From assembly GCF_012911975.1 (NCBI RefSeq), contig NZ_SMDQ01000006.1, forward strand, positions 62,001-126,000: a stretch of DNA of 64,000 nt. Reading direction: 5' to 3'. A program made the translations under genes and the position numbers. Shown here one piece after another: positions 11,598-61,270 of the stretch. The DNA comes from Nodosilinea sp. P-1105 (GTDB lineage: Bacteria; Cyanobacteriota; Cyanobacteriia; Phormidesmidales; Phormidesmidaceae). Below the pieces are notes generated by a model. That model had not been told where the DNA came from. It made no database searches and worked only from the letters and a program-made list of their open reading frames with translations. How positions within the stretch are numbered: the first letter of the stretch is position 1; each line of letters starts with the position of its first letter.

Positions 11598-11656
11598 AGG
11601 GATGACTCTGAAAAAAGAATTATAGACAGACAATGGGTCAACTTATTGTACTGCCT

Positions 11657-38568: not shown

Positions 38569-38697
38569 ATGGCCCGTAAGTTTGACCCCGATTTGGCCGC
38601 CCTGTTTGTCCAGAACTATGGGGAAGTTCAACCCTATGGGATTGAACGGGTGGGGCTGGCCCCCGAGTGGCTCTTGGAGGTGCCCCCGTGCGGTTAG
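38569..38697 (+). CDS. Possible 42-residue protein between Uma2 and nucleotidyltransferase
   Basis: An ATG directly after the Uma2 stop opens a 42-codon frame beginning MARKFDPDLAALFVQNYGEV and ending VPPCG. Its stop overlaps the nucleotidyltransferase start (GTG at 38688), an arrangement typical of coupled genes. I do not recognise the sequence. It could be a small antitoxin-like partner, a remnant of a longer gene, or chance. Confidence 0.35.
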   Translation: MARKFDPDLAALFVQNYGEVQPYGIERVGLAPEWLLEVPPCG

Positions 38698-40979: not shown

Positions 40980-41349
40980 CACCCATGTTGCAATTTGGCA
41001 GACCATTAGCCCACAAAAATTATCTGAACAAGTAAGAGAGCTTTTATTAGATGAATCAAATATCTGGCATCTAAGCCTAGCAAGCATCTGGGAAATGCAA
41101 ATAAAATTACAGCTTGGAAAGTTACGACTAGATATGCCTCTTCCGGAAATGCTCAGAGATTTGCAAGTCAAGAATGATTTACGATTCTTGTTTATTTCTC
41201 TAGAGCATATCTATGCTTTAGAAAATTTACCTCATATTCATCGGGATCCTTTTGATCGAATGCTAATTGCCCAAGCAGCAGCTGAGAAGATGCCCATCAT
41301 CAGCATTGATTCTGCTTTTAATGGATATGATGTTCAACGTTTGTGGTAA
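40963..41349 (+). CDS. PIN-domain toxin (cassette 2)
   Basis: A 128-residue VapC-family PIN protein of a different subgroup from the one at 39363. The acidic residues lie in NLLLDTHVAIWQ, SLASIWEMQIKLQLGKL, HRDPFDRMLIAQAAAE and IISIDSAFNGYDV. DPFDRMLIAQA is a hallmark of this subgroup. It overlaps the antitoxin gene and is AT-rich. Confidence 0.9.
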   Translation: MNLLLDTHVAIWQTISPQKLSEQVRELLLDESNIWHLSLASIWEMQIKLQLGKLRLDMPLPEMLRDLQVKNDLRFLFISLEHIYALENLPHIHRDPFDRMLIAQAAAEKMPIISIDSAFNGYDVQRLW

Positions 41350-41456
41350 TTCCCCGAAATACAGTCCTTATCTTTCGTTGTTACCTGGGCGGGTGCTGAA
41401 TGGAAGTAGCCGCAATGATATGACCGCGATCGCGCCAGCAGCCCCAATACAGCAGG

Positions 41457-41626
41457 CTTTCCCTCCCCTCCCACGGAGGGGTGCCCGGAGGGCGGGGTGG
41501 GTTCTTCGGGCTTGCTTGACCCACCCCTACCTACTTCGACAAGCTCAGCACAGGCCTCCCAGGAGGGGATGCCGATACCTGACACCCTCAGCAACGGTGG
41601 TTATATTTCTGCCAGGCAGTACTAGC
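41457..41626 (-). repeat. Dispersed element R1, long inverted copy
   Basis: It contains GAGGGGTGCCCGGAGGGCGG, CTTCGACAAGCTCAGCACAG, CCTCCCAGGAGGGGATGCCG and TTATATTTCTGCCAGGCAG. The last two parts are the reverse complement of 21981-22050; the first is shared with 62395-62460. It ends at a TACTAG. Confidence 0.8.
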
Positions 41627-41718
41627 CTTCACTCTACCCACCCACTCACCTTCATACTCAAACTGCCTAAAAGACGCCCTTCTCAAGAGCCCTCGTCAAG
41701 CATCTTTTCGGTGCTGCA

Positions 41719-41782
41719 GCGCCAACGCCCGCCATCCCCGATCGAGCGCATTGCCCGCAAGACTGGCCTAAAGCTGAGTTAA
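41719..41782 (+). repeat. Repeat M, copy D (64 bp)
   Basis: It encodes the same nucleotidyltransferase C-terminus (QRPPSPIERIARKTGLKLS, stop TAA) as copy A, with a few silent base changes. It therefore still reads as protein, unlike B and C, and is probably the end of another nucleotidyltransferase gene whose body is gone. Confidence 0.9.
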
Positions 41783-42461: not shown

Positions 42462-42610
42462 TAAAAATCAGCGTTTACTCCATAACCTGGGCAAACGCTA
42501 CATCATTGGTCACCAGCAGTAAAAGGAGCGCTATACGGCACTGTGGGATGTGATTGCTCACAATGCCCGGTCATCCCTTTCTAAGACTTGCCGCTGCACT
42601 AGCTTTCACT

Positions 42611-43579
42611 ATGATTGAATCGATTCTTGTCACCGGGGCAGCGGGCTTTATTGGCTTTCATGTCTGTCAAAAGCTGCTGCATCTGGGCTACCCAGTCGTG
42701 GGCGTTGACAATCTCAACCCCTACTATGACCCCAGCCTAAAGCAGGCCCGGTTAGACCAATTATTGCCCCAGCCCAACTTCAGCTTTCAAAAGCTGGATA
42801 TAGCCGACCGGGACGCCATGGCAGCTCTGATCGCCCAGACCCAGCCGCAGGTGGTGATCCACCTGGCGGCCCAGGCGGGGGTGCGCTATTCCCTGGAAAA
42901 TCCCCATGTCTATGGCGAGAGCAACGTCATGGGTTTTCTAAACCTGTTAGAAGGCTGCCGCCATTACCCGGTGCGGCATCTGGTTTATGCGTCGTCGAGT
43001 TCGGTGTATGGCGCCAATACCAAGGTGCCCTTTGCGGTGGACGATCCGGTGGAGCAGCCGATCAGCCTGTATGCGGCCACCAAGCGGGCCAATGAGCTAA
43101 TGGCTTACACCTACAGCCATTTGTACAGTATCCCAACCACGGGGCTGCGATTTTTTACGGTCTATGGGCCGTGGGGTCGGCCGGATATGGCCTATTTTTC
43201 GTTTACTCGGGCGATTTTGGCAGGGCAGCCGATTAAGGTGTTTAACCATGGCCAGATGCGCCGAGACTTTACTTACATTGACGATATTGTGGCGGGGGTG
43301 TTGGGGGTAATGGACCGTCCCCCCACTGGAGACGTGCCCCCCCACCGGCTGTACAACATTGGCAATAATCAACCGGTCAGCCTAATGGACTTTATTTCTA
43401 CCCTAGAGACTTGCCTGGGGACAACGGCGAAAAAAGAGTTTTTGCCGATGCAGCCGGGGGATTTGCCAGAAACCTTTGCCGATATTGACGACCTGGTCCG
43501 AGACACGGGGTTTAAGCCCAACACGCCACTGGCCACTGGCTTAGCCGCATTTGTGGACTGGTACTGCAACTACGTTTGA
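42611..43579 (+). CDS. NAD-dependent epimerase, UDP-glucuronate 4-epimerase type
   Basis: Extended SDR enzyme. It shows the NAD loop LVTGAAGFIGFHVCQKLL, LAAQAGVRYSLENPHVYGES, the Ser region YASSSSVYGANTKVPF and the catalytic YAATKRANE (YxxxK). The closest group by these motifs makes UDP-galacturonate from UDP-glucuronate for polysaccharides. I start at ATG 42611 (MIESILVTGAAG), since the longer start at 42554 lies in unrelated sequence. It begins the polysaccharide locus, and its stop overlaps the next start as TGATG-type. Confidence 0.92.
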   Translation: MIESILVTGAAGFIGFHVCQKLLHLGYPVVGVDNLNPYYDPSLKQARLDQLLPQPNFSFQKLDIADRDAMAALIAQTQPQVVIHLAAQAGVRYSLENPHVYGESNVMGFLNLLEGCRHYPVRHLVYASSSSVYGANTKVPFAVDDPVEQPISLYAATKRANELMAYTYSHLYSIPTTGLRFFTVYGPWGRPDMAYFSFTRAILAGQPIKVFNHGQMRRDFTYIDDIVAGVLGVMDRPPTGDVPPHRLYNIGNNQPVSLMDFISTLETCLGTTAKKEFLPMQPGDLPETFADIDDLVRDTGFKPNTPLATGLAAFVDWYCNYV

Positions 43580-45492: not shown

Positions 45493-47322
45493 ATGACAAA
45501 AAAGCAAACACCCAGCTCCAAGGCCGCTAATGCTCTGATCGCAGATCTCGTCCGGCTCTACCACCATCTGCCTCGCCGTCGCCGGGTTCAACTGCTGGCC
45601 CTTTTGGCGTTGCTGGTGGTGAGTTCTGTAAGCGAGATGGTGACGGTGGGGGCGATCTTTCCGTTTTTGTCGGCGTTGGGCAATGCCCAGGGGTTGTTGG
45701 CAGCGCCCCGGTGGCAGCCGTTGTGGGGCTTGTTGCAGGTTGATACTCCCCAGCGGTTGGTGTTGGTGCTGGCGTTGGGGTTTATTGTGGCGCTGGGGGT
45801 GGCGAATGGGTTGCGGTTATTGGCGCTGCAGATGCGCTATCGGCTGGCGGCGGCTATCGCCGCTGATGTCAGCAGTCGGGTGTATTACACGACCCTGTAT
45901 CAGCCCTATAACTTCCATGTGCGGCAAAACAGCAGCGATCTGATTCAGACGGTTACGCTGGATACTGATCGGCTCACAACTAATATTTTGCTGCCGGTTC
46001 TAGAATTTCTGGCAAACGCCCTCTTGGCACCAGCGTTAATCGTTACTTTGATGCTGATTGATTGGCAAGTGGCGATCGGGGCAGCGTTGATTTTGGGCAC
46101 AGCCTACACCGTTATTTTTCGGATGCGGCAGCGGTTGTTAAAGCGCAACAGCGCTCGTTTTTCCCAGGCGGGGCAGCACAAGGTGAAGGTGGTGCAGGAG
46201 GGGATCGGCGGTATTCGGGAGGTGTTGCTGGATCACGCTCAGCCCTTTTTCTATGAGGCTTATCAGCGGGATGAGCAGCGGCTGCGGCGGGCACAAGTCA
46301 CCAACAAGATTATTGCCCAGTCTCCGATCTATGTGATTGAGTTTATTGCCCTGGGCTCCATAGCCCTACTAGCCTTGAGTTTGGGGCAGGGGGATGACTT
46401 TAGCCAGGCGGTGCCGGTGCTGGGTAGTTTGGCCCTGGGGGCGAAGCGGTTAGTACCGGCTTTGCAGAAATTGTTTGCCAGTTTAGCGACAATTCAGGGG
46501 GCACGGGCTTCGTTAACCCGGGTATTGGTAGCGCTGGATCGTTCGATTGATCCGTTGTTGCTGGTGCCGACGCCCACCCCGCTGGGCTTGGAGCAAGAAC
46601 TGCGGTTGGATGGGGTGTGGTTTCGCTATGGCGAGGAAAGTGACTGGGTGCTGCGGGGGCTGGAGTTAACCCTGGCGGCGAAGACGACCGTGGCCTTTGT
46701 GGGCAGTACGGGCAGTGGCAAGAGTACGACGGCGGATTTGATTTTGGGCCTGTTGCAACCCCAGCAGGGGCAGATTTGGGTGGATGGGATGCCCCTGGCC
46801 GGGGAGCGGTTGCGGCAATGGCAGGGGGCGGTGGCCCATGTGCCCCAGCACATTTACCTGAGCGATAGCACCCTGGCAGAGAATATTGCCTTTGGCCTTC
46901 CAGAAAAAGAGATTGATTTTAACCAGGTGCGGCGGGCGGCGAAGCTGGCACAGATTGACGGGTTTATTGAGGGGTTGCCAGCGGGGTATGAGACCTATGT
47001 GGGGGAGCGGGGAATTCGGCTGAGTGGGGGACAGCGGCAGCGGATTGGCATTGCCCGGGCGCTATATAAGCAAGGGGTGTCGGTGATTGTGTTTGATGAG
47101 GCCACCAGTGCGCTGGATAATGCCACGGAGCGGGAGGTGATGGCGGCGATTGAGGGGTTGAGTGGGGAGTTTACGATTATTTTGATTGCCCATCGGTTGA
47201 GTACGGTGGAGCGGTGTGATTTGGTGGTGGAGTTGAGGGAGGGACAGGTGGTGGCTCAGGGGAGTTACGGGGAGTTGATGGCGCGATCGGTGAGTTTTCA
47301 GCAGATGTCAGGGGTTGGCTAA
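45493..47322 (+). CDS. ABC transporter, fused permease/ATPase (PglK/MsbA-like lipid flippase)
   Basis: A 609-residue half-transporter. Six transmembrane helices occupy residues about 35-320, then the nucleotide-binding domain with Walker A VGSTGSGKSTTADLILGLL, signature RLSGGQRQRIGIARALY, Walker B VIVFDEATSALD and the H-loop IAHRLSTVERCD. It resembles PglK-type flippases of lipid-linked oligosaccharides, fitting its place in a glycan cluster. Strong SD-like sequence is not evident. It ends the GC-rich 5' part of the locus. Confidence 0.92.
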   Translation: MTKKQTPSSKAANALIADLVRLYHHLPRRRRVQLLALLALLVVSSVSEMVTVGAIFPFLSALGNAQGLLAAPRWQPLWGLLQVDTPQRLVLVLALGFIVALGVANGLRLLALQMRYRLAAAIAADVSSRVYYTTLYQPYNFHVRQNSSDLIQTVTLDTDRLTTNILLPVLEFLANALLAPALIVTLMLIDWQVAIGAALILGTAYTVIFRMRQRLLKRNSARFSQAGQHKVKVVQEGIGGIREVLLDHAQPFFYEAYQRDEQRLRRAQVTNKIIAQSPIYVIEFIALGSIALLALSLGQGDDFSQAVPVLGSLALGAKRLVPALQKLFASLATIQGARASLTRVLVALDRSIDPLLLVPTPTPLGLEQELRLDGVWFRYGEESDWVLRGLELTLAAKTTVAFVGSTGSGKSTTADLILGLLQPQQGQIWVDGMPLAGERLRQWQGAVAHVPQHIYLSDSTLAENIAFGLPEKEIDFNQVRRAAKLAQIDGFIEGLPAGYETYVGERGIRLSGGQRQRIGIARALYKQGVSVIVFDEATSALDNATEREVMAAIEGLSGEFTIILIAHRLSTVERCDLVVELREGQVVAQGSYGELMARSVSFQQMSGVG

Positions 47323-47378: not shown

Positions 47379-49127
47379 ATGACGCAATCTTTATCGATTA
47401 AAGAATGGCCTCCTCTGTCAATCACTCAGAGACAAGATGACTTACTCTTAAGTCCTTGCTCATATAAAGATGCGAAATATATATCTTTTAAGGATATCGA
47501 TAATAAACATGAGGGAGCACTGGTAGAAGTTGTTCATATTGGACACTTTACTTTGGATGAAAAACCCTTTCTACAAACAATCAAAAGTGATAAATATAAA
47601 GACTTCTGGCTTTCTGAGCAGGCTCTTACCCGACTAGCTCTTTCCCTTTCGGGATGGGGTTGCTTGATAGTCATAAATCAACAGCAGAGCAAGATATACG
47701 TTCTAACTGATAAGATGGGGAGCTTACCAGTTTTTTATACTAAAACTGTTAAGGGTGTTTTTATTGATTGGGATCAAGACTACTTGGCCTTAAAATTGAA
47801 CATCTCAGAATTTGACTATATATCTCTATCTGAAGTGTTGCTGCGAGGCTCAGTTACTCCTCCATATACTCTCTACAAAGACATTCAAGTCTTAAGACCA
47901 GCAACAATTTTAACCATAGATGGTAGAACTCATCAAATGAGCTTCCAGGAATACTGGAAGCCAGCATTTAAATCTGGTAGTTTCAAAAGTCTTGACGCAG
48001 CAGCAACGGTGGTAGCGGAGGCAATTCAAACTTCTGTCAATAAATTTTCAAGTTCTGGTATTCGAATAGATTGTTTACTTAGTGGTGGTCTCGATTCAAG
48101 AGTTTTGCTGCCACTTATCTCACAAAATGCTCTCACCCAACCTAGTGCTTATACCGTTTTCTCAGAAAGTAATCTTTGGAGTCAAAGAGAGTTGAAAGTT
48201 GCAAAACAGCTAGCAAAGCATTTTGGGATAGAGCACTATACATTAAAGCGAACCGTAGAAAGTCTTAGGAAAAGTTTTTATCACGGAGCACTAACTTGTG
48301 GAGGCAGTCACAACCTGCGACATTGTTACCTGGGAGGATTTGACGATTTCTCAAGATATAATTTTGAAGATCAATCTTTTTTGATGACTGCATGTTATGC
48401 AGATCTCTTGTTTAAGATGCAAAATCCAAAAGCAAAAGAGATCAAATCTTCGAATATAAATCTGAACTGGTTTTCTCATCGATATAACTCTGGGAATAAA
48501 TATATCAATTTTTTGATTGATGAGCGTCTTCTAAAATTCGCTACCGAAAGAGAATTGGATGAGTCCTTATTGAAAACAGAAGAGGGGAGAGCGCATATAG
48601 CTATGCAACGCTGTCGCCCTATTTATGGACTCAGAACTTTTGCATTTAGAAGGCATCTGATGTCAACTCGAAAACTGGTACTTCCTTTGCTAGAAAATGA
48701 GGTCCTTGATGTTTGGCAAATGATTGGAGATAAACGAGGGAAAAATCTATGGGTAGAGATTATTAAGAAAATAGATACGAGTCTTCTAAGTTTTCCAGAT
48801 TCAAATACAGGACTCTATCCCGATGTTTATCATCCTTTAGGCTTTCGAGATAAAATTAAATCAAAGGGTTCTAAAATAGTAAAGAAAATAAATTCCATAT
48901 ATTTCAATAAAATAAGTGATCGAAAAAAACCAATAAGCAGTTGGGATGATTCCGAGACTCTTTTGAATTTCAAAGAAGAAATTCGAGAAAACTCATTTTC
49001 AAAAGAGTTAGCAAAAGAGCTAGATATCAAAGGTGTTGTGGATTTTCGTTTCTGGACTAGGTTGATGTCTATTCAAGAATGGATAGATGAGAGGCCAGAA
49101 AAAACTAGGGACGTCAAGCCTTTTTGA
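47379..49127 (+). CDS. Asparagine synthase-like protein lacking the glutaminase nucleophile
   Basis: A 582-residue protein. The C-terminal two thirds form an asparagine-synthase ATP-pyrophosphatase domain with the PP-loop LLSGGLDSRVLLPL and QRELKVAKQLAKHFGIEHY. The N-terminal part resembles a class II glutamine amidotransferase fold (WGCLIVINQQQSKIYVLTDK, GSLPVFY), but there is no Cys at position 2 or nearby, so glutamine hydrolysis is unlikely. Such proteins in glycan clusters are proposed to amidate sugars or other acids. It marks the switch to AT-rich DNA. Confidence 0.82.
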   Translation: MTQSLSIKEWPPLSITQRQDDLLLSPCSYKDAKYISFKDIDNKHEGALVEVVHIGHFTLDEKPFLQTIKSDKYKDFWLSEQALTRLALSLSGWGCLIVINQQQSKIYVLTDKMGSLPVFYTKTVKGVFIDWDQDYLALKLNISEFDYISLSEVLLRGSVTPPYTLYKDIQVLRPATILTIDGRTHQMSFQEYWKPAFKSGSFKSLDAAATVVAEAIQTSVNKFSSSGIRIDCLLSGGLDSRVLLPLISQNALTQPSAYTVFSESNLWSQRELKVAKQLAKHFGIEHYTLKRTVESLRKSFYHGALTCGGSHNLRHCYLGGFDDFSRYNFEDQSFLMTACYADLLFKMQNPKAKEIKSSNINLNWFSHRYNSGNKYINFLIDERLLKFATERELDESLLKTEEGRAHIAMQRCRPIYGLRTFAFRRHLMSTRKLVLPLLENEVLDVWQMIGDKRGKNLWVEIIKKIDTSLLSFPDSNTGLYPDVYHPLGFRDKIKSKGSKIVKKINSIYFNKISDRKKPISSWDDSETLLNFKEEIRENSFSKELAKELDIKGVVDFRFWTRLMSIQEWIDERPEKTRDVKPF

Positions 49128-49206
49128 CGAATTTTATAGATGTCCACTATAGACATCTATATAGTCATCTGCTTTTCTTCAAATCTATTTTTCACTATGT
49201 TAAGAA

Positions 49207-50085
49207 ATGCTTGAAGGTTTAAAAACTCAAATCCATCTATCTACCTTTACAACTTGGAAAATAGGTGGGTTCGCCCAATATCTAGTTGAACCCAATTTAT
49301 ATGAGTCGATAGAAGCTGTCAGGTGGGCTGATAATAATAAACTAAGTGTTTACTTTCTGGGTAACGGCTCTAACATATTGATCGATGATACTGGATTACC
49401 TGGCTTAGTCATCGTTACCCGAAATTCCTTAATGGGCTTACGCCGAGAAGCAGATTATATCATTGCCGAAAGTGGAGTATTTTTACCGCACCTATCAAAG
49501 TTTGCAGCCCGAGAAGGGTTTTCAGGCTTTGAGTTTTTGATCGGCATTCCTGGTACTGTTGGTGGGGCAATAGCCATGAATGCTGGCCTAACCGTATTTC
49601 GTCCCCGTGAAATGACAGCTATTGTCCAGGATTTTGACGTGCTTAACTTGGATGGCAGCATTGAAACGCTGACGATGGACGATGTTAATGCCGAGTATCG
49701 CCACACTGATTTATTAGATGGCAAGCGGCTAATTTTGCAAGCCCGTTTTCGTTTAGACGAAGCAGGCGATCCCACTGAAATTAAGCGCAATACCTTTGAG
49801 CATCTGGCTGAGCGTAAGCGTAAGCAACCCCTCGACAAACCGACCGCAGGCAGTACATTTAAGTCACCACCGGGCAGTAAGGGGGCCGGATGGTATATTG
49901 AGCAGTCGGGACTAAAGGGTTTTCAGGTAGGTGGTGCCAGAGTGAGTCCAGTTCATGCCAACTGGATTGAAAATTTAGGTAGTGCCACAGCGGCAGATGT
50001 TCGTAATTTGATAGATCATATTCAAGCCACAGTAGATAAGCGAATGAGTATTAGCCTAGAGCCTGAAGTTATTTTCCTAAGCTGA
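49207..50085 (+). CDS. murB: UDP-N-acetylenolpyruvoylglucosamine reductase (MurB paralogue in polysaccharide locus)
   Basis: A 292-residue FAD enzyme that normally reduces UDP-GlcNAc-enolpyruvate to UDP-MurNAc with NADPH. The FAD site is FLGNGSNILIDDTGLPGLVI and GIPGTVGGAIAMNAG. The catalytic Ser region is TAGSTFKSPPGSKGAGWYIE and the C-terminal Glu is in ISLEPEVIF. The length fits the short type II MurB. AT-rich codon use and place beside a MurA-like gene in a glycan cluster suggest a dedicated copy, but I cannot see whether another murB exists. Confidence 0.88.
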   Translation: MLEGLKTQIHLSTFTTWKIGGFAQYLVEPNLYESIEAVRWADNNKLSVYFLGNGSNILIDDTGLPGLVIVTRNSLMGLRREADYIIAESGVFLPHLSKFAAREGFSGFEFLIGIPGTVGGAIAMNAGLTVFRPREMTAIVQDFDVLNLDGSIETLTMDDVNAEYRHTDLLDGKRLILQARFRLDEAGDPTEIKRNTFEHLAERKRKQPLDKPTAGSTFKSPPGSKGAGWYIEQSGLKGFQVGGARVSPVHANWIENLGSATAADVRNLIDHIQATVDKRMSISLEPEVIFLS

Positions 50086-50093
50086 CTTGATTA

Positions 50094-51401
50094 ATGTCTA
50101 ATTCACAGATTGATCTGATTCATCAAGGCAACCTGTCTATGCAGGTGTGTGGCCCTCAGGTGCCATCAGGCAAAGTCCGGGTCAGTGGTGCGAAGAATGC
50201 AGCAACCCGAATGATGGCAGCAGCCATGCTAACAGATGAACCTGTTTATCTTCTCAACTTTCCCACTGCATTGGTTGATGTCTATCAAAAAGCTCGCTTT
50301 ATTAAGGCCCTATCTGGCAAAGTGAAGCTTGATAAGACAGCTTCGTCAGCTCGCTTTGATTGTTCTCAGTTAACGCCAAGGATTTTAGATAAGTATGACT
50401 TTCCTATTCGTACAACCTATTTATTAGCTGCTGGTCAATTATTGCGTCAGGGAAAGGCATTTATTCCTTATCCTGGTGGTTGCAATTTAGGAGTTCGCAA
50501 ATATGATCTACATCTCATGGTTTGGCTGACCCTGGGATGTCATGTAGAAGAAAAGCCATACTATATTGAAATTACAGGTCAACTAAGAGGAGCAGATATC
50601 CACTTCCCGATTTCTACAGTTGGAGGTACTGAAAATGCTCTTTTGTGTGGTGCGATCGCCTACGGTAAAACGAGAATTTATAATGCCTATGTTACGCCGG
50701 AGATAGAAAACCTGATTGATCTTTTAACCTTGATGGGAGCAAAAATTACAGTTATTGGAACCAGTTTGATAGAGATTGAGGGAGTCAACTATCTTAGAGG
50801 TGCAACTATTCCGGTCATATCCGATCGAATTGAGGCATTAACATGGATAATTTTTTCTGCTATTTCCGAAGGAAATATTCTGGTTGAAAATGTTCCATTC
50901 AAATTGATGGAAATACCATTACTCCACCTTAAAAAAGCTGGGCTAGACTTTTTTGCTAGCTCTAACTCTGTTTGGGTTTCCCCTGAGTCAATCCCTGAAT
51001 ATGGCCTACAGCCCTTTGAAATGGCCTGCGGCACGCATCCGGGAATAATTTCAGATATGCAGCCTTTTTATGCTCTTCTTGCATTACATTCAGCAGGGCG
51101 AAGTCTTGTAGTAGACTATCGCTATCCTGAACGCACTACATATTTAGAACAGCTATCTCAATTTTACCCTGGCGCTATTGAATGGAAGCCTGGGAAAATT
51201 ACTATTAACGGCAAAAAACAGCCTACTGGGGCATCTGTAGTGTCAACGGATTTAAGAGGAAGTATGGCTCTTGTTTTAGCTGGCATTATGGCCATAGGAA
51301 AAAGTCAAATAGGTAAAGTCCACATGGCTTTGCGAGGATATGATCGCATGAAAGAAAAACTAGTCAAACTGGGAATTCAATTTGACATTCATCCTCAGTG
51401 A
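50094..51401 (+). CDS. MurA-like UDP-N-acetylglucosamine 1-carboxyvinyltransferase
   Basis: A 435-residue enolpyruvyl transferase (EPSP synthase fold). MurA residues can be matched: Lys34-Asn35 in VSGAKNAATRMMA, the catalytic Cys and following Arg in YPGGCNLGVRKYDLHL, the catalytic Asp in GIISDMQPFYALL, an Arg in YPERTTYLEQL and another in TDLRGSMALVLAG. It should add enolpyruvate to the 3-OH of UDP-GlcNAc or a related sugar. The sequence is clearly diverged from housekeeping MurA. It follows murB by 8 bp, so the two are probably one unit. Confidence 0.85.
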   Translation: MSNSQIDLIHQGNLSMQVCGPQVPSGKVRVSGAKNAATRMMAAAMLTDEPVYLLNFPTALVDVYQKARFIKALSGKVKLDKTASSARFDCSQLTPRILDKYDFPIRTTYLLAAGQLLRQGKAFIPYPGGCNLGVRKYDLHLMVWLTLGCHVEEKPYYIEITGQLRGADIHFPISTVGGTENALLCGAIAYGKTRIYNAYVTPEIENLIDLLTLMGAKITVIGTSLIEIEGVNYLRGATIPVISDRIEALTWIIFSAISEGNILVENVPFKLMEIPLLHLKKAGLDFFASSNSVWVSPESIPEYGLQPFEMACGTHPGIISDMQPFYALLALHSAGRSLVVDYRYPERTTYLEQLSQFYPGAIEWKPGKITINGKKQPTGASVVSTDLRGSMALVLAGIMAIGKSQIGKVHMALRGYDRMKEKLVKLGIQFDIHPQ

Positions 51402-51674
51402 AAATTCCTATATATCAATTGTGTTGCATAAGCAAAATTTAGACGATGACCTTTCGCTTTCAGGTACTATAAGGCTAGTAATTGAATTATCTGTGGATGG
51501 TTGAAGGAGAAAATCACTAAGCAGTACTGAAATACCTGGCTTTAGCTTAGCAGTGATTTGTTGCGAATCATTAAAATACATCGCAAGAAGATATAAATAT
51601 AAAAAATTAGTTTTAGTTATTAAATCAGAATAATTTGGTTTTTATAATACAGATTCGCAAGTTTAAAGATAAAT
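51402..51674. other. AT-rich gap with a possible hairpin
   Basis: AATCACT at 51512-51518 can pair with AGTGATT at 51552-51558, with AAGC/GCTT inside, forming an imperfect hairpin after the murA-like gene. It may be a terminator or a processing site; the stretch holds no gene I can support. Confidence 0.35.
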
Positions 51675-52712
51675 ATGGGTTGTCAAATGAAAGATTCTCT
51701 AGTAAGTGTCATCTCATGTTTTTATAATAGATCAGAATATGTTTGCAGGTCAGTTGAAAGTCTTTTAAGACAAACATACAAAAACATAGAAATTCTATTA
51801 GTAGACGATGGATCTACTGATGATACTCTTGATCAACTATCTTCCTATAAAGATTCACGAATCAAATTAATTTCGCATCGAAATAAGGGATTTGTTCGTG
51901 CACTTAAAGATGCAATTTCTATTTCCCACGGTAATTTTATCGCCATCCATGGCTCTGGGGATATTTCTTTACCTCAGCGAATAGAGAAACAGGTCTATAT
52001 GTTAATGGATAATCCCAATATTGGTGTTGTAGGATGCTACCGTCAGGACTTTAGTATTGCAAGAAATTTATGGGACATACAAAAGCCAAGTGTGGCTGAG
52101 GATCAATTATCTCAGTTACTTTTGCATAATCCCTTCAGTCATGGAGAAGTGATGTTTCGACGGAGCTGCTATGAACAGGTCGGTGGTTATCGTGAATTCT
52201 TTGAGTTTGCTCAAGATCGAGACCTTTGGCTAAGGTTAGCTCCAATTACTCGTTTTGCAGTTGTTCCAGAAATTTTATATCGGAGAGAGCCTATCGAAGG
52301 CTCTGTGACTAAGACTCCATGTAAAGCAAGAAAGCAGACTTATTTATCAGAGTTTTCAATTTTTTGTGCACTAACAAGGAAACTTAAAAGTATTGATCCT
52401 CTAGATCAATACGGCTCTAAAGCTTTCATTGATTTCCAAAACTCTATTTCTGCTAAACACAAAATTTCTACTCGTCTAAGAGGTCTAGCATATCGCTATG
52501 CAGCAGATGGACAGTTTTTTGCAGCTAAAGAATTCATGAAAGAAGTGACTGATCTGAAACCCTCTTTTTTTAATGTAGTGGTTTCCAGAATTATAACCTC
52601 TTCTGAAAAGAATTTAACTTTAAGAAAGCTTATTAAAATATTACTGAGACTCAGATTTATATTTAAGGCAAGAGTAGAAAAAAATATAAAAAATGCCTTT
52701 AAAAAGGGCTGA
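51675..52712 (+). CDS. Family 2 glycosyltransferase
   Basis: A 345-residue GT-A inverting glycosyltransferase. Residues 5-110 have VSVISCFYNRSEYVCRSVES, QTYKNIEILLVDDGSTDDT and a likely metal-binding acidic region in GNFIAIHGSGD, with Gly-Ser in place of the usual DxD. The catalytic base may be in FAQDRDLWLRLAPI. The C-terminus is basic. A second ATG at 51687 (MKDSLVSVISC) is also a plausible start. It would transfer a sugar to a lipid-linked intermediate. Confidence 0.88.
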   Translation: MGCQMKDSLVSVISCFYNRSEYVCRSVESLLRQTYKNIEILLVDDGSTDDTLDQLSSYKDSRIKLISHRNKGFVRALKDAISISHGNFIAIHGSGDISLPQRIEKQVYMLMDNPNIGVVGCYRQDFSIARNLWDIQKPSVAEDQLSQLLLHNPFSHGEVMFRRSCYEQVGGYREFFEFAQDRDLWLRLAPITRFAVVPEILYRREPIEGSVTKTPCKARKQTYLSEFSIFCALTRKLKSIDPLDQYGSKAFIDFQNSISAKHKISTRLRGLAYRYAADGQFFAAKEFMKEVTDLKPSFFNVVVSRIITSSEKNLTLRKLIKILLRLRFIFKARVEKNIKNAFKKG

Positions 52713-53032
52713 TTCGATTTAAATTCAGAAAATTATGCCGATTTATAAAATATAGCATTATTGCTTGCCTATTTTGTCGCTCCTCGTTACAACTAGAGAA
52801 TAGCCCATAGCGTTTAATTTGCTAAACTCTTGGTCCCCATGGACGAAACATATAAGTAGCACCTGCAACACTGAGTTGAAGTGTTATTACTCTAAAAGTT
52901 ATGGCTAGTAAATGACTCAAAATCATTTAAGCTTTGCTTAGCTAAATATCTGTATTTGAATGCATAATATTTTCGTTTTTGAATCAAAATTTTGTATAGG
53001 TTGTATTAAAAATCCTAATACCTTAAACTGAT
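52713..53032. other. AT-rich intergenic stretch, nothing recognised
   Basis: A 320-bp AT-rich gap between two glycosyltransferase genes. AACACT and AGTGTT near 52870 could form a 6-bp stem, too weak to name. No open frame of coding character was seen; it may be the remnant of a lost gene. Confidence 0.5.
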
Positions 53033-53953
53033 ATGGGAAAACTAGAGTTAGTAAGTGTGATAGTAACAACTTATAAAAGAGCAAATTTAATATCAAGAGC
53101 TATTTTGAGTGTTTTATCGCAATCATACAAGCACTATGAGGTGTTAATTGTAGATGATAATCCTGTGGGATGTATTGAAAAGAAAGAAACACAAGCCGTC
53201 GTAAGAAAATTTTTAGGCCAAGCCAATATTCGTTACATCGATCTTCAAGGAAACTTTGGTTATGCCCTGGCTAGAAATGTAGGGATTAGAGAGAGTAAAG
53301 GAAAATATATCGCTTTCCTTGATGATGACGATGAATGGCTTCCACACAAATTGACTGAGCAAGTTAAGTGTATTCAAGAAGATTCTTCAATAGGAATGGT
53401 TTATTGCCGCTCTGTCAATCTCAAAGAAAATGGAGAAATTTATAAGTCAAACAAAAAAAAGTTACCTTCTGGATATATTTTTGAAAAAATTTTGGCTCAG
53501 GACATTATTGGTGCAACATCGAAAGTATTGGTGAGAAAATCTTGTATTGATCTAATTGGTTCGCTAAATGAGTTGACACCAACTAGAGCTGATCACGACT
53601 TTTTTCTCAGAATATCTAAAAAGTATAAGATTGGACTTGTTGACGAAGTTTTAGTCAACTTTTACATTGAGGGAAATAGGCTTAGTCGAGACTTTGAAAA
53701 AAAACTTGCGGGCTGGAAATTTTTCTTTGCATCTTGGGAAGAAGAGTTGAAAAAGTACCCTAAGGCAATGAAGAGTCAAAAGTTTAAGTTCAATTATGAA
53801 ATCGGGAAGATTCTTTTTTTGAAGGGTGAGACTAAAAAATCAAAGCAATTCTTCAAAAAGGCGATAGCTCTCAAGCCTTATATGTTAAAAGCTTATTTTT
53901 TACTCTTTTGCTCATATTTAAATATTTCTTCAAACAAGATAGGGCTTAAATAG
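53033..53953 (+). CDS. Family 2 glycosyltransferase
   Basis: A 306-residue GT-A enzyme. It shows VSVIVTTYKRANLISRAILS, YEVLIVDDNPVG, ARNVGIRESKGKYIAFLDDD (with the DDD metal site at its end) and TRADHDFFLRISKKYKIG. The C-terminal 90 residues look like TPR-type helices (KILFLKGETKKSKQFFKKAI). AT-rich. It is an inverting transferase for polysaccharide repeat assembly; the sugar is unknown. Confidence 0.9.
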   Translation: MGKLELVSVIVTTYKRANLISRAILSVLSQSYKHYEVLIVDDNPVGCIEKKETQAVVRKFLGQANIRYIDLQGNFGYALARNVGIRESKGKYIAFLDDDDEWLPHKLTEQVKCIQEDSSIGMVYCRSVNLKENGEIYKSNKKKLPSGYIFEKILAQDIIGATSKVLVRKSCIDLIGSLNELTPTRADHDFFLRISKKYKIGLVDEVLVNFYIEGNRLSRDFEKKLAGWKFFFASWEEELKKYPKAMKSQKFKFNYEIGKILFLKGETKKSKQFFKKAIALKPYMLKAYFLLFCSYLNISSNKIGLK

Positions 53954-54001
53954 TAGTAAGTTTCAAGCAAATTAAAGCACTCATATTTAGGAGCTTGAGA
54001 T

Positions 54002-55057
54002 TTGAGAGTCCATCATATTATTAATGATATTTGCTTGGATAGGGGAGGTGCTCAGCGAATTGTACGCTTTTTACACCAAGGACTAAGCGAACATGATATT
54101 GACTCTTATATTGTTGCTCTTAATGGCACAACTGGCAATCTGTCGAACGTAATTTCTATAGATTGTCCTTCACCTTATAGCTGGCAAGCGTTTTGGTTTG
54201 TTTACCAGTACTTACAAAAACAGTGTTTGCCAGAAGATATTGTACATGGGCATCTTTTTCCCACAATATTATATATAGCCCTAGCAGCCAAGATGCTTCG
54301 GTGGCCAGGACGATTGGTTTGCACAGAACACAATACCCATAATAGGCGCCGAGGAACTATCATTGGGAAATTGGTTGACAGTCAAATTTACCCAGCTTAT
54401 GAACAAATCTATTGCATCAGCAGCGGTACTAAAAATGCTCTGCGAGGCTGGATGCCTGATCAAGCTGATAAGCTAAGAGTAATTGAAAACGGTACCTCAT
54501 TACCCTGTAGCCAATTTAAACCTAGAACACCTAAAAATAAAATCATCATCGTTTCAGTGGGTCGCTTAAATAAGCAAAAAAACTATACGGCTGCTATTCA
54601 AGCGATGTCACTATTACGAAATGTCTCTGTTGAGTACCGCATTGCTGGGCTTGGTCCAGAAGAGACCGCACTAAAAAGTCTATGTGTGCAGTTGGGTCTG
54701 ACTGATATTGTAAAGTTCTATGGCTATGTAGATGATATCTTTGCTTTTTTCAAACAAGCTGATGTCTTTTTGATGCCCTCCCGATGGGAGGGTTTTGGTC
54801 TAGCTGCTGTAGAAGCTATGAATACTGGCTTGCCGGTAATTGCAAGCAGTGTTGATGGCTTGAGAGAAATTGTAGACACCCCTGCACCCTGTGGAATTTT
54901 AGTCTCACCGGATAATCCTAAAGAAATTGCAGCAGCAGTGAAAACACTTCTTGATTTAAAGACAAGGCTAATATATGGGAAAAACGCCTTTAATCGCTCG
55001 GTTGAGTTTTCAATAGAAAAGATGATAAATAGATATTTGAACGCTTATAATGTTTAG
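54002..55057 (+). CDS. Family 4 glycosyltransferase
   Basis: A 351-residue GT-B retaining glycosyltransferase. The N-terminal nucleotide-free domain has ICLDRGGAQRIVRFLHQG; the C-terminal Glycos_transf_1 domain has IIVSVGRLNKQKNYTAAI, AGLGPEETALKSL and VFLMPSRWEGFGLAAVEAMN, in which Glu and the EGFGLAAVE motif are characteristic. I use the TTG at 54002 because it gives the family start MRVHHIIND, and no nearer ATG exists. Confidence 0.92.
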   Translation: MRVHHIINDICLDRGGAQRIVRFLHQGLSEHDIDSYIVALNGTTGNLSNVISIDCPSPYSWQAFWFVYQYLQKQCLPEDIVHGHLFPTILYIALAAKMLRWPGRLVCTEHNTHNRRRGTIIGKLVDSQIYPAYEQIYCISSGTKNALRGWMPDQADKLRVIENGTSLPCSQFKPRTPKNKIIIVSVGRLNKQKNYTAAIQAMSLLRNVSVEYRIAGLGPEETALKSLCVQLGLTDIVKFYGYVDDIFAFFKQADVFLMPSRWEGFGLAAVEAMNTGLPVIASSVDGLREIVDTPAPCGILVSPDNPKEIAAAVKTLLDLKTRLIYGKNAFNRSVEFSIEKMINRYLNAYNV

Positions 55058-55206
55058 GAAAGTTTGTAGCTTTAGATTGCGTTTAATTGAGGAAATAAAT
55101 ATTTTGGTGTACTGGCATGTAACTCTTTTCCTGCTAAGTGATTCTTGACTCGAAATCGCTTGTAAAGAAGGTTTGGATGAATACTTGAGTGTCTTATTGA
55201 AAACTA

Positions 55207-56463
55207 ATGCTAACATTATCTATTATTCTTTCCTTTCTAATATTTTTAGATTGCTTCGTCAAGGCAAAAAAACTTTATTCAACACCAATTTTTATTGCCT
55301 TCTTTTTAAGATTAAGTCTCGCAACTTCATCATACTTTGACTTGATAGAGTTGCCTTCTTCCCCTGATGCTGCTGCTTTTTTGCGACGAGCTGATACATT
55401 CAGCTATTACAGTTGGGGAGAACTATCTAGCATTCTATCCAACCAGGCTGGTAGCTCTGCTATTTTCCCCGCTTTGGGAGCTTTAGTATATAAGACTTTT
55501 GGATTTAAGGATCCTTTGGCGATAACCATATTATTTTCTGTATGCTTCGGAACTCTTGCTGTTGCATTCACATATTATTTAAGTGAGATTTTGGTTGGGT
55601 CAAAGCGTGCTCGTCAAGTTATTTGGATTATAGTATTTTTCCCACCCATTGTTTTGAATTCTTCTGTTTATAATAGGGAGGCACTATGTGGTGCCTTATT
55701 TACTTTGGGCTTATATTATGTAGCCCGTTGGTGGAGTCAAGCTGAAAATCAGAAGAGTAAAATTTCTCATGTGGTAGGTGCAGTTGTGTGCTTTATCCTT
55801 GCCTCTTGGATTCATGGGGGCTATGTATTTGTTTTTATTGGCTTACTTGTTTTGTCTGCATGGGAAATTATCAGGCTCGTATTCAGTCCCACTAGAAAGT
55901 TTAATAGAAAAAAAATAGTTATTGCTTTTACCGGTTTTTTTCTGTTAATTACTTTAACATTTTTTGCTATTACCTCTCAAGTGTCTTTTGGTAAAGTCGG
56001 AAATGTGGCTGATACTATTTCATCTGCTGATGAAGTAATTGACTCCCAGGTAGAAAGAGAGGGTAGGGGGGGGTCTGTTTATCCAGATTTCGCTCAGAGA
56101 ATCTTACCAGTTAGAGTAATCTACTTTTTGTTCTCTCCCTTTCCATGGGATATTCGTTCGGCAAGAATGCTCCAGGGATTTATTGCTACCGCTGTATTCC
56201 TTTATATAGCTATTTCAATATTTAAGAGTATTAGAGGTGGCTTTTTTCGTGGTAGAAATGATGTAAGAGCAGTCTCAATAGTCCTTGCCATCTCAATTTT
56301 TGTATTTGCTGTCGGCACCCGAAATATTGGAACTTCCATAAGACATCGAAGTAAGTTTTTGTATGGTTTGCTTGGATTATCTGCAGCTACCGTCTTTAAG
56401 TCTGACCCTTCAAGACAGAAATATTTTTATGGAGTAGAAAATAACAGCAATCACGGCATCTGA
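55207..56463 (+). CDS. Polytopic membrane protein, probable polysaccharide polymerase
   Basis: A 418-residue protein with about ten hydrophobic helices and few motifs. By its topology, its loop with Arg residues (SSPDAAAFLRRADTFSYYSW) and its place among glycosyltransferases it is probably a Wzy/EpsG-like polymerase; a GT-C type glycosyltransferase is the alternative. No other polymerase candidate is visible in the locus. AT-rich. Confidence 0.65.
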   Translation: MLTLSIILSFLIFLDCFVKAKKLYSTPIFIAFFLRLSLATSSYFDLIELPSSPDAAAFLRRADTFSYYSWGELSSILSNQAGSSAIFPALGALVYKTFGFKDPLAITILFSVCFGTLAVAFTYYLSEILVGSKRARQVIWIIVFFPPIVLNSSVYNREALCGALFTLGLYYVARWWSQAENQKSKISHVVGAVVCFILASWIHGGYVFVFIGLLVLSAWEIIRLVFSPTRKFNRKKIVIAFTGFFLLITLTFFAITSQVSFGKVGNVADTISSADEVIDSQVEREGRGGSVYPDFAQRILPVRVIYFLFSPFPWDIRSARMLQGFIATAVFLYIAISIFKSIRGGFFRGRNDVRAVSIVLAISIFVFAVGTRNIGTSIRHRSKFLYGLLGLSAATVFKSDPSRQKYFYGVENNSNHGI

Positions 56464-56618
56464 TATTTGATATTAAACTAGACTCTTGCTAAGAATCAAC
56501 TACTTTTGTTAAAAATTGATCAGAGATCAATGCTGTTTTCTGTAGTGTTAATCTTTTGTGATCATCCACCCGAAGCTTTGCTGAGTTTCTTTAGAAAATA
56601 AGATTTGGATTTATAGTA

Positions 56619-57581
56619 ATGGAGAAAAGTGAAAAAGATATATTCTTCATTTTCGGCTCTGGGCGATGCGGAACAACCCTGTTGCGTGCATTGCTGGTTA
56701 GTCATCCAGATATCTGTATTCCAGGAGAAACTCACTTTTATAACCAGTACACAAAGCTCCAGTCCATAAAGTACGGTCCAATGCGACCAGCTTTGTATCG
56801 TCAGCTTGTTGATAAATTTCCATCCTGGGGCCATGTAAAAAGCGAAACTCTGGATTGGCAGCTGTTTCACGAATTAGCCTTAAACTCTACACCCAGTTGG
56901 GATTCGCTATTTATTGCTTACTTAACGGCCTATCGCCTATCCTTAGGTAAGAAAATCGTCGGCGAAAAAACTCCAGGACACTTCAAAAGTATTAACTCCT
57001 TAGCCAATAACTTTCCTGAATCTAAATTCATCCACATCATTCGCGACCCAAGAGCCGTTGTCGCCTCTTACCTGAAGCATACCTTTTACCAAGACTGCTT
57101 CGGCTCCAACGTTGCTAGAGCTGCCCAAAAATGGGTGGATGCTGCAAAGTTTCACTGCAAAATCCTCAATAGCCCTCACTCGCTTCAAGCTCGATACTTA
57201 ATGCTTAGGTATGAAGATCTAGTAGATGATCCTGAATCTGTTATCCATAAAGCCTTGCAGCATATTGGTGCAGATCCAACTCAGTTTACTATGACCGCTT
57301 ATTGTGGACTCGATTTAGACGGCGTCAATCGCACTAACCACGCCAACATTGGCAAACCAATTTCTTCCGCATTCAACAATAAATGGAAAGACGAGTTGAG
57401 TCCCCAACAAATGTCTATTATTGAAACCATTTGTCAGCCATACTTGGAAAAACTAGGCTACTCCACCCACTCCCAGTCAACAGCCTCATCCTTGAAGCTT
57501 GAAACTTTTCGTGAGGAGTGCGTGGCCGAACTCCTTCAGATGCGGCTCATCGCCAGAAAGCTACTCTCTACAATCACCTAA
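56619..57581 (+). CDS. Sulfotransferase family protein
   Basis: A 320-residue PAPS-dependent sulfotransferase. The 5'-phosphosulfate loop is FIFGSGRCGTTLLRALLVSH, and the 3'-phosphate site is FIHIIRDPRAVVASYLKHTF with the Arg and Ser positions. VGEKTPGHFKSINSL and MLRYEDLVDDPESVI are typical of this family. It would sulfate a hydroxyl of the polysaccharide or its precursor. Sulfated exopolysaccharides are common in cyanobacteria. It ends the AT-rich block, 17 bp before the next gene. Confidence 0.9.
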   Translation: MEKSEKDIFFIFGSGRCGTTLLRALLVSHPDICIPGETHFYNQYTKLQSIKYGPMRPALYRQLVDKFPSWGHVKSETLDWQLFHELALNSTPSWDSLFIAYLTAYRLSLGKKIVGEKTPGHFKSINSLANNFPESKFIHIIRDPRAVVASYLKHTFYQDCFGSNVARAAQKWVDAAKFHCKILNSPHSLQARYLMLRYEDLVDDPESVIHKALQHIGADPTQFTMTAYCGLDLDGVNRTNHANIGKPISSAFNNKWKDELSPQQMSIIETICQPYLEKLGYSTHSQSTASSLKLETFREECVAELLQMRLIARKLLSTIT

Positions 57582-58750: not shown

Positions 58751-58774
58751 CATGTGTACTTTTCCAGGGTGTCT

Positions 58775-59455
58775 ATGCAAGATTCAGCCAAACGACTGTT
58801 CGACATCGTCTCCAGCAGTGTGGCGCTGGTCATCCTCGCCATCCCCCTACTGCTGATCGCCCTTTGGATTCGCCTCGATAGCCCCGGTCCCATCCTGTTT
58901 CGCCAGACTCGCATTGGTCGCCATGGTCGTCCCTTCTCTATCGTCAAATTCCGCAGCATGCGGCACCGCAACCCCCAAGGGATCGACCAACATGCCGAGC
59001 CAGTGGTGACCACTGGCCACGATCCCCGCATCACGCGAGCTGGGCGCCTGCTTCGAGCCACCAGCCTGGACGAACTGCCCCAGCTATGGAACATTTTGGT
59101 CGGCGAAATGAGCGTCGTCGGCCCCCGCCCGGTGCTGCCCGAACAAGTTGAGGTCGTCCCCGATCACTTACGCCAGCGCTTCCAGGTCCGCCCTGGCCTT
59201 ACCGGCTTGGCCCAGGTGCGCGGTCGCCGCAGCCTCAGTTGGCTAGACCAGTTAGCCGCCGATCAAGAATACGTGGCTCGCCACAGCTTGGTTATGGACC
59301 TGGGGCTTATCGTTCGCACCATTGGGGTGTTGTTCACTGGCAGTGGCGTCTATGGGGGCGAAGCCCAAAACTGGCGCGCCTACCGGGATACCTTAAAGCG
59401 CTCAGCCCGACCCGTATCCAGTTCCACAAAGCCTTCCAACCATGGCCCCAGCTAA
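58775..59455 (+). CDS. Initiating phosphoglycosyl transferase (PglC/WcaJ-type sugar transferase)
   Basis: A 226-residue monotopic phosphoglycosyl transferase that moves a sugar-1-phosphate onto undecaprenyl phosphate, the first step of repeat assembly. It has one N-terminal membrane helix (residues about 13-34), DSPGPILFRQTRIGRHGRPF, FRSMRH, and the catalytic region TSLDELPQLWNILVGEMSVV followed by GPRP, with its conserved Asp-Glu pair. The compact size fits the minimal PglC form. With the dehydratase and PglA-like genes this suggests a bacillosamine-type first sugar. Start at 58775. Confidence 0.93.
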   Translation: MQDSAKRLFDIVSSSVALVILAIPLLLIALWIRLDSPGPILFRQTRIGRHGRPFSIVKFRSMRHRNPQGIDQHAEPVVTTGHDPRITRAGRLLRATSLDELPQLWNILVGEMSVVGPRPVLPEQVEVVPDHLRQRFQVRPGLTGLAQVRGRRSLSWLDQLAADQEYVARHSLVMDLGLIVRTIGVLFTGSGVYGGEAQNWRAYRDTLKRSARPVSSSTKPSNHGPS

Positions 59456-60281
59456 CCTCCACTGCATGTTGATTACCGCCAACCCGGCGATCGCCCAATA
59501 TGCCGAACAAGCCGGGGTCCAGCGCATCTTCATCGACATGGAAGTGTTGGGCAAAGCCGAACGCCAGGGCCACCTCAATACCCACAAAGCCCACCATACC
59601 TATGCAGACATCAGCACCCTTCGGGCGGTACTCACCCAGGCAGAACTGATGGTGCGCCTGAACCCCCTGCATGACAGCACCCCCAGCGAAATCGATCAAG
59701 CCATTGCCCACGGTGCCCAGCGGTTGATGCTACCCATGTTCCATCGCCGTACCGAGGTGCGCCGCTTTTTGGATCTGGTGAATGGGCGGGTACCCGTTAC
59801 CCTGCTCACCGAAACCCCCCCGGCCCTAACCCGTTTGCCCACCTACATAGCCGATCTGGGGCCAACCGACCAGATCCACATTGGCCTCAACGACCTGTCC
59901 CTGGGCATGGGGCTCGACTTTTTGTTTGAGCCGGTGGCCGCTGGGCTGCTGGACCCCGTGGCAGACCTGTTAAACCAAAACGACATTACCTGGGGCTTTG
60001 GCGGCATTGCCCGCATGGGCACCGGCACCCTGCCAGCGGAATTGGTGCTCAGTGAGCATGTGCGCTTGGGGTCGGGTTGGGTGATTCTCTCCCGTGCCTT
60101 CCATGGAGAAGCCGCCACGGTAGAAGCCCTATGCGATCGCCTTGACCTCAAGGCCGAACTGCAAAAACTCTGGGCCACTGAAACGCAGCTACGCCAGGCG
60201 GGGCAGGCTACCCTACAGCAAAACCACCAGCAGTTTGCCGCCAAAACCTTTGCCCTTGCCGCCCAAGCCGCCCCCCGCTAA
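59442..60281 (+). CDS. HpcH/HpaI aldolase family protein
   Basis: A 279-residue TIM-barrel class II aldolase-like protein. Recognisable parts are RIFIDMEVLGKAERQG, VRLNPLHDSTPSEIDQAI, VTLLTETPPALTRLP (catalytic Glu region) and IHIGLNDLSLGMGLDFL (Asp region). The family makes and cleaves 2-keto-3-deoxy acids from pyruvate and aldehydes. It overlaps the sugar-transferase stop by 14 bp, so it is coupled to the glycan operon; it may make a keto-acid sugar or pyruvyl donor. An ATG at 59466 is also possible. Confidence 0.85.
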   Translation: MAPANLHCMLITANPAIAQYAEQAGVQRIFIDMEVLGKAERQGHLNTHKAHHTYADISTLRAVLTQAELMVRLNPLHDSTPSEIDQAIAHGAQRLMLPMFHRRTEVRRFLDLVNGRVPVTLLTETPPALTRLPTYIADLGPTDQIHIGLNDLSLGMGLDFLFEPVAAGLLDPVADLLNQNDITWGFGGIARMGTGTLPAELVLSEHVRLGSGWVILSRAFHGEAATVEALCDRLDLKAELQKLWATETQLRQAGQATLQQNHQQFAAKTFALAAQAAPR

Positions 60282-60289
60282 CGACGCCC

Positions 60290-61270
60290 ATGCCCCAGCC
60301 CTACCCCATTCAGCGCGTGCTGTTCGTGCAAAAAGCTAACGTCCTCCCCCAACAACAGGGGCTGGTCCACCAAAAGCTGACGGAAGCCCTGGGCCAGTTA
60401 GACATCCTTTGCATCAGCTCCCCTGACGACCTTGCCCAAGGCAGTTGTTTTGACGCAGTCATCACCCCCACCCTGCCCTGGTTGCCAGACCTACTACACC
60501 GGCTAGATACCTGCCCCTGGCTGCACTTTCTTTCCGCCGGGGTCGAGAAAATCTGGTCGATGGACTTCGATAAGCAAAACCGGCTGCTGACCAAAAGCAG
60601 CGGCGTCCATGGCCCCGCCATGGGCGAGTATGCCATCGGGGCCATGCTCTACTTTGCCAAGCAATTTGGCCGCTTTCACCATCAATCCCAGCAGCGCCAG
60701 TGGCAACGCACCTGGCTCGATGAACTGACTGGCAGAACTGTGGCCATTCTGGGGCTGGGCCACATCGGCCAAACCATTGCCCAGCGGGCCAAAGCCTTTG
60801 ATATGACCGTCTGGGGCACCCTGAACCATCCCCGACCCATACCCCAGGTAGACCAGGTATTTAGCCATGATCAGCTGTGGGCTCGGTTATCAGAGGTGGA
60901 CTACCTGGTGGTGTGTCTACCCCTGACCTCCGCTACCCGTCACCTGGTTAACCACCAGGTTCTGGGCCAACTCAAACCGGGGGCCGTGCTGATTGACATC
61001 TCTCGGGGCGGCATTGTCTCGGCCGCCGCCGTGCTACAAGCCCTGGATAGCGGTGTCCTAAAAGGGGCCGCTCTGGATGTGTTTGAGCACCAGCCCCTAC
61101 CAGAAACCTCTCCCCTCTGGGCTCGCCCTGATATCCTCCTAACCCCCCATGTCTCTGGCACCACTCCCTACTACCTGGAGCGCGCCCTGGATATCTTTAT
61201 TCAAAACGCCCAACACCTCGCCCACGGCCAAGCCCCCATCACTCCCGTGAATGTGGCCGCAGGCTACTAA
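60290..61270 (+). CDS. D-isomer-specific 2-hydroxyacid dehydrogenase
   Basis: A 326-residue NAD(P)-dependent dehydrogenase. The nucleotide loop is AILGLGHIGQTIAQRAKAFD; VVCLPLTSATRHLVN, IDISRGGIVSAAAVLQAL and ILLTPHVSGTTPYY (catalytic His region) follow. It interconverts 2-keto acids and D-2-hydroxy acids. It lies 8 bp after the aldolase gene and is probably in the same operon; together they could handle a 2-keto-3-deoxy or lactyl compound. The true substrate is unknown. Confidence 0.9.
   Translation: MPQPYPIQRVLFVQKANVLPQQQGLVHQKLTEALGQLDILCISSPDDLAQGSCFDAVITPTLPWLPDLLHRLDTCPWLHFLSAGVEKIWSMDFDKQNRLLTKSSGVHGPAMGEYAIGAMLYFAKQFGRFHHQSQQRQWQRTWLDELTGRTVAILGLGHIGQTIAQRAKAFDMTVWGTLNHPRPIPQVDQVFSHDQLWARLSEVDYLVVCLPLTSATRHLVNHQVLGQLKPGAVLIDISRGGIVSAAAVLQALDSGVLKGAALDVFEHQPLPETSPLWARPDILLTPHVSGTTPYYLERALDIFIQNAQHLAHGQAPITPVNVAAGY

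Follow-up and report, generated by a model that had tools for sequence, protein, structure and literature searches.

The window, which is the whole stretch of 64,000 nucleotides of Nodosilinea sp. P-1105 DNA analysed here, contains a polysaccharide locus in which two adjacent genes are publicly annotated as UDP-GlcNAc 1-carboxyvinyltransferase and UDP-N-acetylmuramate dehydrogenase. The question raised by this locus is whether the pair, named murA' and murB' below, serves the cell wall or makes a lactyl-ether sugar for another polymer, as proposed in the original prediction.

The gene pair, its AT-rich island and the housekeeping copies

Both open reading frames were confirmed and, as predicted, 8 bp separate the murB' stop from the murA' start. 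The neighbours also agreed with the earlier description: an asparagine synthase (AsnB)-like protein, several glycosyltransferases (GTs) and a sulfotransferase. The features of the locus are the following:

42554..43579, + strand: NAD-dependent nucleotide-sugar epimerase
45493..47322, + strand: ABC-type exporter/flippase, a GC-rich gene of the frame
47379..49127, + strand: AsnB-like protein without Cys2, within the AT-rich island and outside the conserved module
49207..50085, + strand: murB', 292 aa, type II MurB-family FAD reductase, putative enolpyruvyl-to-lactyl reductase of the module
50094..51401, + strand: murA', 435 aa, enolpyruvyl transferase with an altered sugar pocket, in a clade of its own
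51675..52712, + strand: GT2a, module-specific family 2 glycosyltransferase (GT2), in a clade with the GT2s beside murA'/murB' elsewhere
53033..57581, + strand: rest of the AT-rich island, with GT2b (53033), GT4 (54002), a membrane protein (55207) and a sulfotransferase (56619)
58754..59455, + strand: polyprenyl glycosylphosphotransferase (initiating transferase), GC-rich frame

The pair had been described as AT-rich like the neighbouring glycosyltransferase genes, and the GC3 values agree with this: 0.39 for murB' and 0.33 for murA', as compared with 0.62-0.70 for the murA, murB and aroA genes of the same genome. Low values (about 0.25-0.46) extend over the block 47379-57581, whereas the surrounding polysaccharide locus is GC-rich (0.64-0.72), with the epimerase, a FlaA1-like dehydratase and the ABC exporter on the left, and a GT4 and the glycosylphosphotransferase on the right. 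An AT-rich block nested in a GC-rich frame resembles a swapped-in polysaccharide island, and its appearance is typical of a replaced variable region. Within the block, the membrane protein at 55207, to which no family was assigned, is possibly a polymerase; the sulfotransferase at 56619 is of a common type, and another is present in a Phormidesmis locus, without linkage to the module elsewhere.

Two further observations were made in the window. At the right edge of the locus (59442-61270), an HpcH/HpaI-like aldolase gene adjoins a D-2-hydroxyacid dehydrogenase gene, a homologue of which is also present in the Halomonas module locus (L042). To the left, RQRPPSPIERIARKTGLKLS is a C-terminal stretch shared by a nucleotidyltransferase-like ORF and a later ORF (38667-38987 and 41267-41782), as if part of a gene had been duplicated.

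The source genome (6.0 Mb; the window lies on contig C152) carries a separate housekeeping murA (C185), aroA (C90) and murC-murB pair (C110), which rules out the window pair as the only murA and murB of the genome. The same was observed in all 11 carrier genomes checked, each having one MurA over the cut-off of the murA equivalog TIGR01072 (436-604 bits) and one module copy below it (304-363 bits). Additionally, exactly two MurBs were found in the window genome and in 10 other carriers checked, as compared with one in four non-carriers.

MurA', a protein of the EPSP-synthase superfamily, matches PF00275 and the MurA subfamily model PRK09369 (325.6 bits, cut-off 297) and falls under TIGR01072 (311 bits, cut-off 392.7); the other module copies score 300-368 bits with this model and the housekeeping MurA of the same genome scores 573. 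The predicted structure has the MurA fold (pLDDT 85.7, pTM 0.86, TM 0.83-0.91 to MurA structures) at about 30% identity to the solved MurAs. MurA' is 51-70% identical to proteins from Phormidesmis, Bacteroidota, Alphaproteobacteria, Marinobacter and tailed phages, and 30-36% identical to cyanobacterial housekeeping MurAs. In the MurA tree, for which the comparison set was mostly cyanobacterial, the module copies form one clade (100/100), apart from the housekeeping copies, including those of their own genomes. The tree placement called for by the original prediction thus set MurA' in a separate clade which, together with an identity of 30-32%, excludes a recent duplicate of the host murA.

MurB' passes both NCBIfam MurB equivalogs, NF010480 (296.2 bits, cut-off 259) and TIGR00179 (213.2 bits, cut-off 144.5), and contains the FAD-binding and MurB_C domains. 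It is 68-72% identical to the Phormidesmis module MurB and 70% to that of a congener; with the respective housekeeping copy in the same genome, MurB' shares 42% identity and MurA' 32%. The corresponding MurB tree was less decisive: the module MurBs fall in three places, on long branches, and a single clade was not rejected (AU p = 0.168), for which reason we do not claim separate recruitment. The three positions suggest weaker conservation of the reductase than of MurA'.

The sugar pocket and the putative acceptor

The original prediction that catalytic residues are kept was borne out by alignments for both proteins. MurA' retains K34/N35 (E. coli K22/N23), R106 (R91), C130 (C115), R135 (R120), D321 (D305), R347 (R331), R388 (R371) and R414 (R397), and the catalytic residues of enolpyruvyl transfer are all present in the module MurA' copies of both subtypes described below. 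S216 (in the GSxF motif), R165 and E287 of MurB' are likewise conserved.

The positions at which module and housekeeping MurAs differ are concentrated in the substrate site (numbered hereafter as in E. coli MurA). All module copies with sequence at this site, whichever their subtype, have V327R and E329P, and none of 39 other MurAs does; V122Y and T304S also occur in both subtypes and are absent from the same 39. Further swaps in the pocket of module copies are Pro121 to Gly or Lys and Ala92 to Thr or Asn. The Val327, Thr304, Glu329 and Pro121-Val122 of the UDP-GlcNAc pocket are accordingly replaced by Arg, Ser, Pro and Lys/Gly-Tyr. Position 327 of E. coli MurA contacts the GlcNAc part of UDP-GlcNAc. 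It has been counted among the MurA active-site residues (PMC11628175).

These substitutions bear on the strongest alternative, namely that the pair makes ordinary UDP-MurNAc for a MurNAc-containing exopolysaccharide and differs from the housekeeping route in expression or dosage only. Intact catalytic residues in both enzymes and the score of MurB' over the MurB equivalog cut-offs would fit such a role, and muramic-acid-type sugars are known in some O-antigens. However, the positions around the sugar are changed alike in two MurA' subtypes from several phyla, and the housekeeping enzymes already make UDP-MurNAc in the same cells. Since a further route to it would bring such a cell little advantage, the substrate is more likely to be another UDP-sugar, and we regard UDP-MurNAc supply as rather unlikely.

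With regard to the acceptor, murB' of Phormidesmis is immediately preceded by a uronate-type epimerase gene, and both a UDP-glucose dehydrogenase and a uronate-type epimerase are encoded near the murA' copy of Haematobacter. By its motif, the epimerase of the window (42554..43579) would also be of the UDP-uronate type; it has homologues adjoining the module, or close to it, in Phormidesmis L036 (55%) and on the Haematobacter plasmid (48%). Not all copies have uronate genes in their vicinity: those of Parapedobacter and G1520 are accompanied by GDP-mannose dehydratase-like genes, and that of Rhizobium by an aminotransferase gene. As Arg327 is present in every MurA' examined and uronate-type genes lie near several copies, an acidic UDP-sugar, for example UDP-glucuronate, would be the leading candidate for the acceptor of MurA', an assignment that we make tentatively. 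That Arg327 binds a carboxylate is a guess.

Recurrence of the murA'-murB'-GT2 module

Relatives of MurA' with 51-70% identity were found in two Phormidesmis genomes, Parapedobacter, Echinicola, an alphaproteobacterial MAG and Marinobacter. Additionally, a murA' gene lies on a Haematobacter plasmid, a frame-broken copy is present in Halomonas, and more copies occur in further Marinobacter-family and Bacteroidota genomes. A profile of the MurA' subfamily gives 720-800 bits on close members and 200-270 bits on housekeeping MurAs, with one shorter Bacteroidota copy at 648 bits. The surveyed genomes are samples, among which a close relative was found in none of 385 other cyanobacterial genomes and MurA' in 2 of 395 Bacteroidota.

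A murB gene adjoins or is near murA' in all 17 cellular loci (in one case it is one flippase gene away), and in 11 of these loci, as in the phage records, a GT2 gene is at most a gene or two away; the module GT2 was not found near the copies of G1262, G776 and G1520. Among 94 GT2s, the 12 linked ones group in one clade (SH-aLRT 99), none of 500 label shuffles being as clustered, and GT2a of the window is a member of this clade. The settings are those of polysaccharide biosynthesis, with flippases, initiating glycosylphosphotransferases and nucleotide-sugar genes. The gene immediately upstream of murB' encodes a homologue of the window exporter (45493..47322) both in Phormidesmis RL_2_1 (59%) and in the congener (44%), and homologues of the glycosylphosphotransferase (58754..59455) are found in the Marinobacter and Bacteroidota module loci. 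On a Qingshengfaniella plasmid (L073, 7449-11250), murA'-murB'-GT2 occurs without any other listed polysaccharide gene in the stretch and adjoins genes of proline and arabinonate catabolism.

In the window genome the housekeeping murA and murB are on different contigs, so the linkage within the module was not inherited from cell-wall genes. The recurrence of the three genes in surface-polysaccharide loci of unrelated bacteria points to a lactic-acid-bearing sugar for slime or capsule, probably not for the cell wall, and we consider it probable, from comparative sequence analysis, that the module makes a lactyl-type sugar for a surface polysaccharide. The originally predicted pathway outside peptidoglycan is supported by the separate housekeeping copies and by the fact that, in several phyla, the pair recurs in polysaccharide loci together with a glycosyltransferase of its own; its amidation step, treated below, is not supported.

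Plasmids of Rhizobium and Qingshengfaniella carry, together with murB and GT2, a second MurA' subtype that is 37-40% identical to the first. The same subtype was found in a genome of the window's own genus (G1334, contig C4; locus L189, 8607-14066), in which the order exporter-murB'-murA'-GT2 is preserved. Whereas the MurB and GT2 of this congener are 70% and 58% identical to those of the window, its MurA' is 62% identical to the Rhizobium protein and 38% to the window MurA'. The two congeners have sister GT2s in the GT2 tree (98/97), and in the MurB tree their proteins group with the Phormidesmis copies in one set. The exchange of MurA' subtypes while the partners stay constant ties both subtypes to one pathway and suggests that both work with the same partners. 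It should also be mentioned that a TupA-like ATP-grasp gene (PF14305; L189, 2627-3523) lies a few genes from the module of the congener; in this single case it could in principle attach an amino acid to the acidic sugar.

The module is also found, in part, on three IMG/VR records of 52-139 kb, in which murA' (70% identical to that of the window) is followed by the module GT2 (57% identical to that of Phormidesmis), at about 10001-12146:

L066: IMG/VR 3300042452_000944, phage murA'-GT2
L067: IMG/VR 3300042521_002893, phage murA'-GT2
L068: IMG/VR 3300042298_003052, phage murA'-GT2

Matches to virion structural, head-decoration, tail-fibre and helicase proteins on one record make a phage likely, and disfavour mis-binned plasmids despite a partition-like gene on another. 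The phage MurA' also matches the uncharacterised PHROG phrog_25097. No murB was found on the three records, which are fragments, and in these phages a host enzyme may take over the reduction, or the step may be dispensable. One may speculate that the phages use murA'-GT2 together with the host reductase to remodel the host surface during infection.

The phage records argue for a second alternative, in which MurA' and the GT2 alone are the functional core, the product is an enolpyruvyl rather than a lactyl sugar, and MurB' is an optional modifier; the lower conservation of MurB than of MurA' between phyla is in keeping with it. We find this improbable, because none of the 17 cellular loci has murA' without a murB beside or near it, and because the viral records are incomplete and a host can supply MurB.

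Second MurAs (MurA2/MurZ) are common among other bacteria, and the pair could accordingly be a spare cell-wall copy, for dosage, stress or fosfomycin backup, located in a polysaccharide island by chance. This is very hard to reconcile with the linkage to one GT2 clade that cyanobacteria, Bacteroidota and Proteobacteria share and with the rare, patchy distribution reported above; moreover, the cysteine targeted by fosfomycin is retained in all module MurA' proteins, on which ground we reject a fosfomycin backup. As for the AsnB-like protein as an enzyme that would amidate the lactyl acid, its gene is directly upstream and equally AT-rich, but the idea is unsupported and highly improbable, given that the protein begins with MTQSL and has no Cys2, the N-terminal nucleophile of glutamine-dependent AsnB, that its PF00733 match is weak and spans only 85 residues, and that no homologue was found in the other module loci compared.

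The proposed pathway and its relation to known systems

Our best reading is that the module yields a lactyl-ether sugar in UDP-activated form, which is probably different from UDP-MurNAc and may be a uronic acid, and that the window pair would be the precursor-making half of a mobile murA'-murB'-GT2 polysaccharide module. The enolpyruvyl group that MurA' would take from PEP would be placed on a hydroxyl of some UDP-sugar different from UDP-GlcNAc, and its reduction by MurB', with NADPH and FAD, would give a D-lactyl (1-carboxyethyl) ether. The GT2 next to the pair would then add the acidic sugar, or the residue beside it, to a lipid-linked repeat unit, to be exported by the neighbouring flippase; the product may be a 3-O-lactyl uronic acid, as in two Alteromonas exopolysaccharides. 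The proposal in its entirety, which is possible though we incline to doubt it as a whole, is that of a mobile module with two interchangeable MurA subtypes that produces, for exopolysaccharide, UDP-3-O-lactyl uronic acid or a different lactyl sugar not based on GlcNAc, that supplies the missing genetic route to lactyl-uronic exopolysaccharides, and whose murA'-GT2 part is carried by tailed phages to remodel the host surface.

Because of the public annotation of the genes as cell-wall enzymes, a polysaccharide pathway would have been hidden among cell-wall genes. If the reading is correct, the signature chemistry of peptidoglycan has been reused for capsule or slime in unrelated phyla, with a phage-borne piece of the pathway in addition. 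An Arg at E. coli position 327 and a linked GT2 would serve as sequence markers for lactyl-sugar polymers, and enzymes for making acidic lactyl sugars would become available.

MurA' resembles MurA (UDP-GlcNAc 1-carboxyvinyltransferase, TIGR01072) in its fold and in the residues listed above (K22, N23, R91, C115, R120, D305, R331, R371 and R397). It differs in scoring below the equivalog, in its separate clade, in the sugar and uridine contacts (V327R, E329P, T304S, P121K/G, V122Y), in its linkage to polysaccharide genes and in not being the main peptidoglycan copy, either in its own genome or in the 11 carriers checked. MurB' resembles type II MurB (UDP-N-acetylmuramate dehydrogenase) in its domains and in passing both curated cut-offs; unlike the housekeeping enzyme, it is a second copy of horizontally acquired composition that is paired with murA'.

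NikO, of nikkomycin biosynthesis, is a MurA relative outside peptidoglycan, an enolpyruvyl transferase acting on UMP (PMC6801904). MurA' is not closely akin to it, the identity being 22% in the fold alignment and the sequence match to 4fqd covering the C-terminal part only (77.6 bits). Unlike MurA', NikO belongs to an antibiotic pathway on a nucleotide, and we know of no MurB or GT2 partner for it.

No paper tying murA/murB homologues to lactyl sugars in polysaccharides was found in the literature searched, outside which most subscription papers lay. The exopolysaccharides of Alteromonas HYD657 and 1644 contain 3-O-(1-carboxyethyl)-D-GlcA (PMC2901825), the sugar that one would expect from the changed MurA' pocket; genes for its biosynthesis were not found in the literature searched. 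Finally, two genes for glucolactilic acid in Shigella boydii 17 are reported in work cited in PMC5643014; they could lower the novelty of the module, which they resemble in that they would likewise provide a surface polysaccharide with a lactyl-ether sugar.
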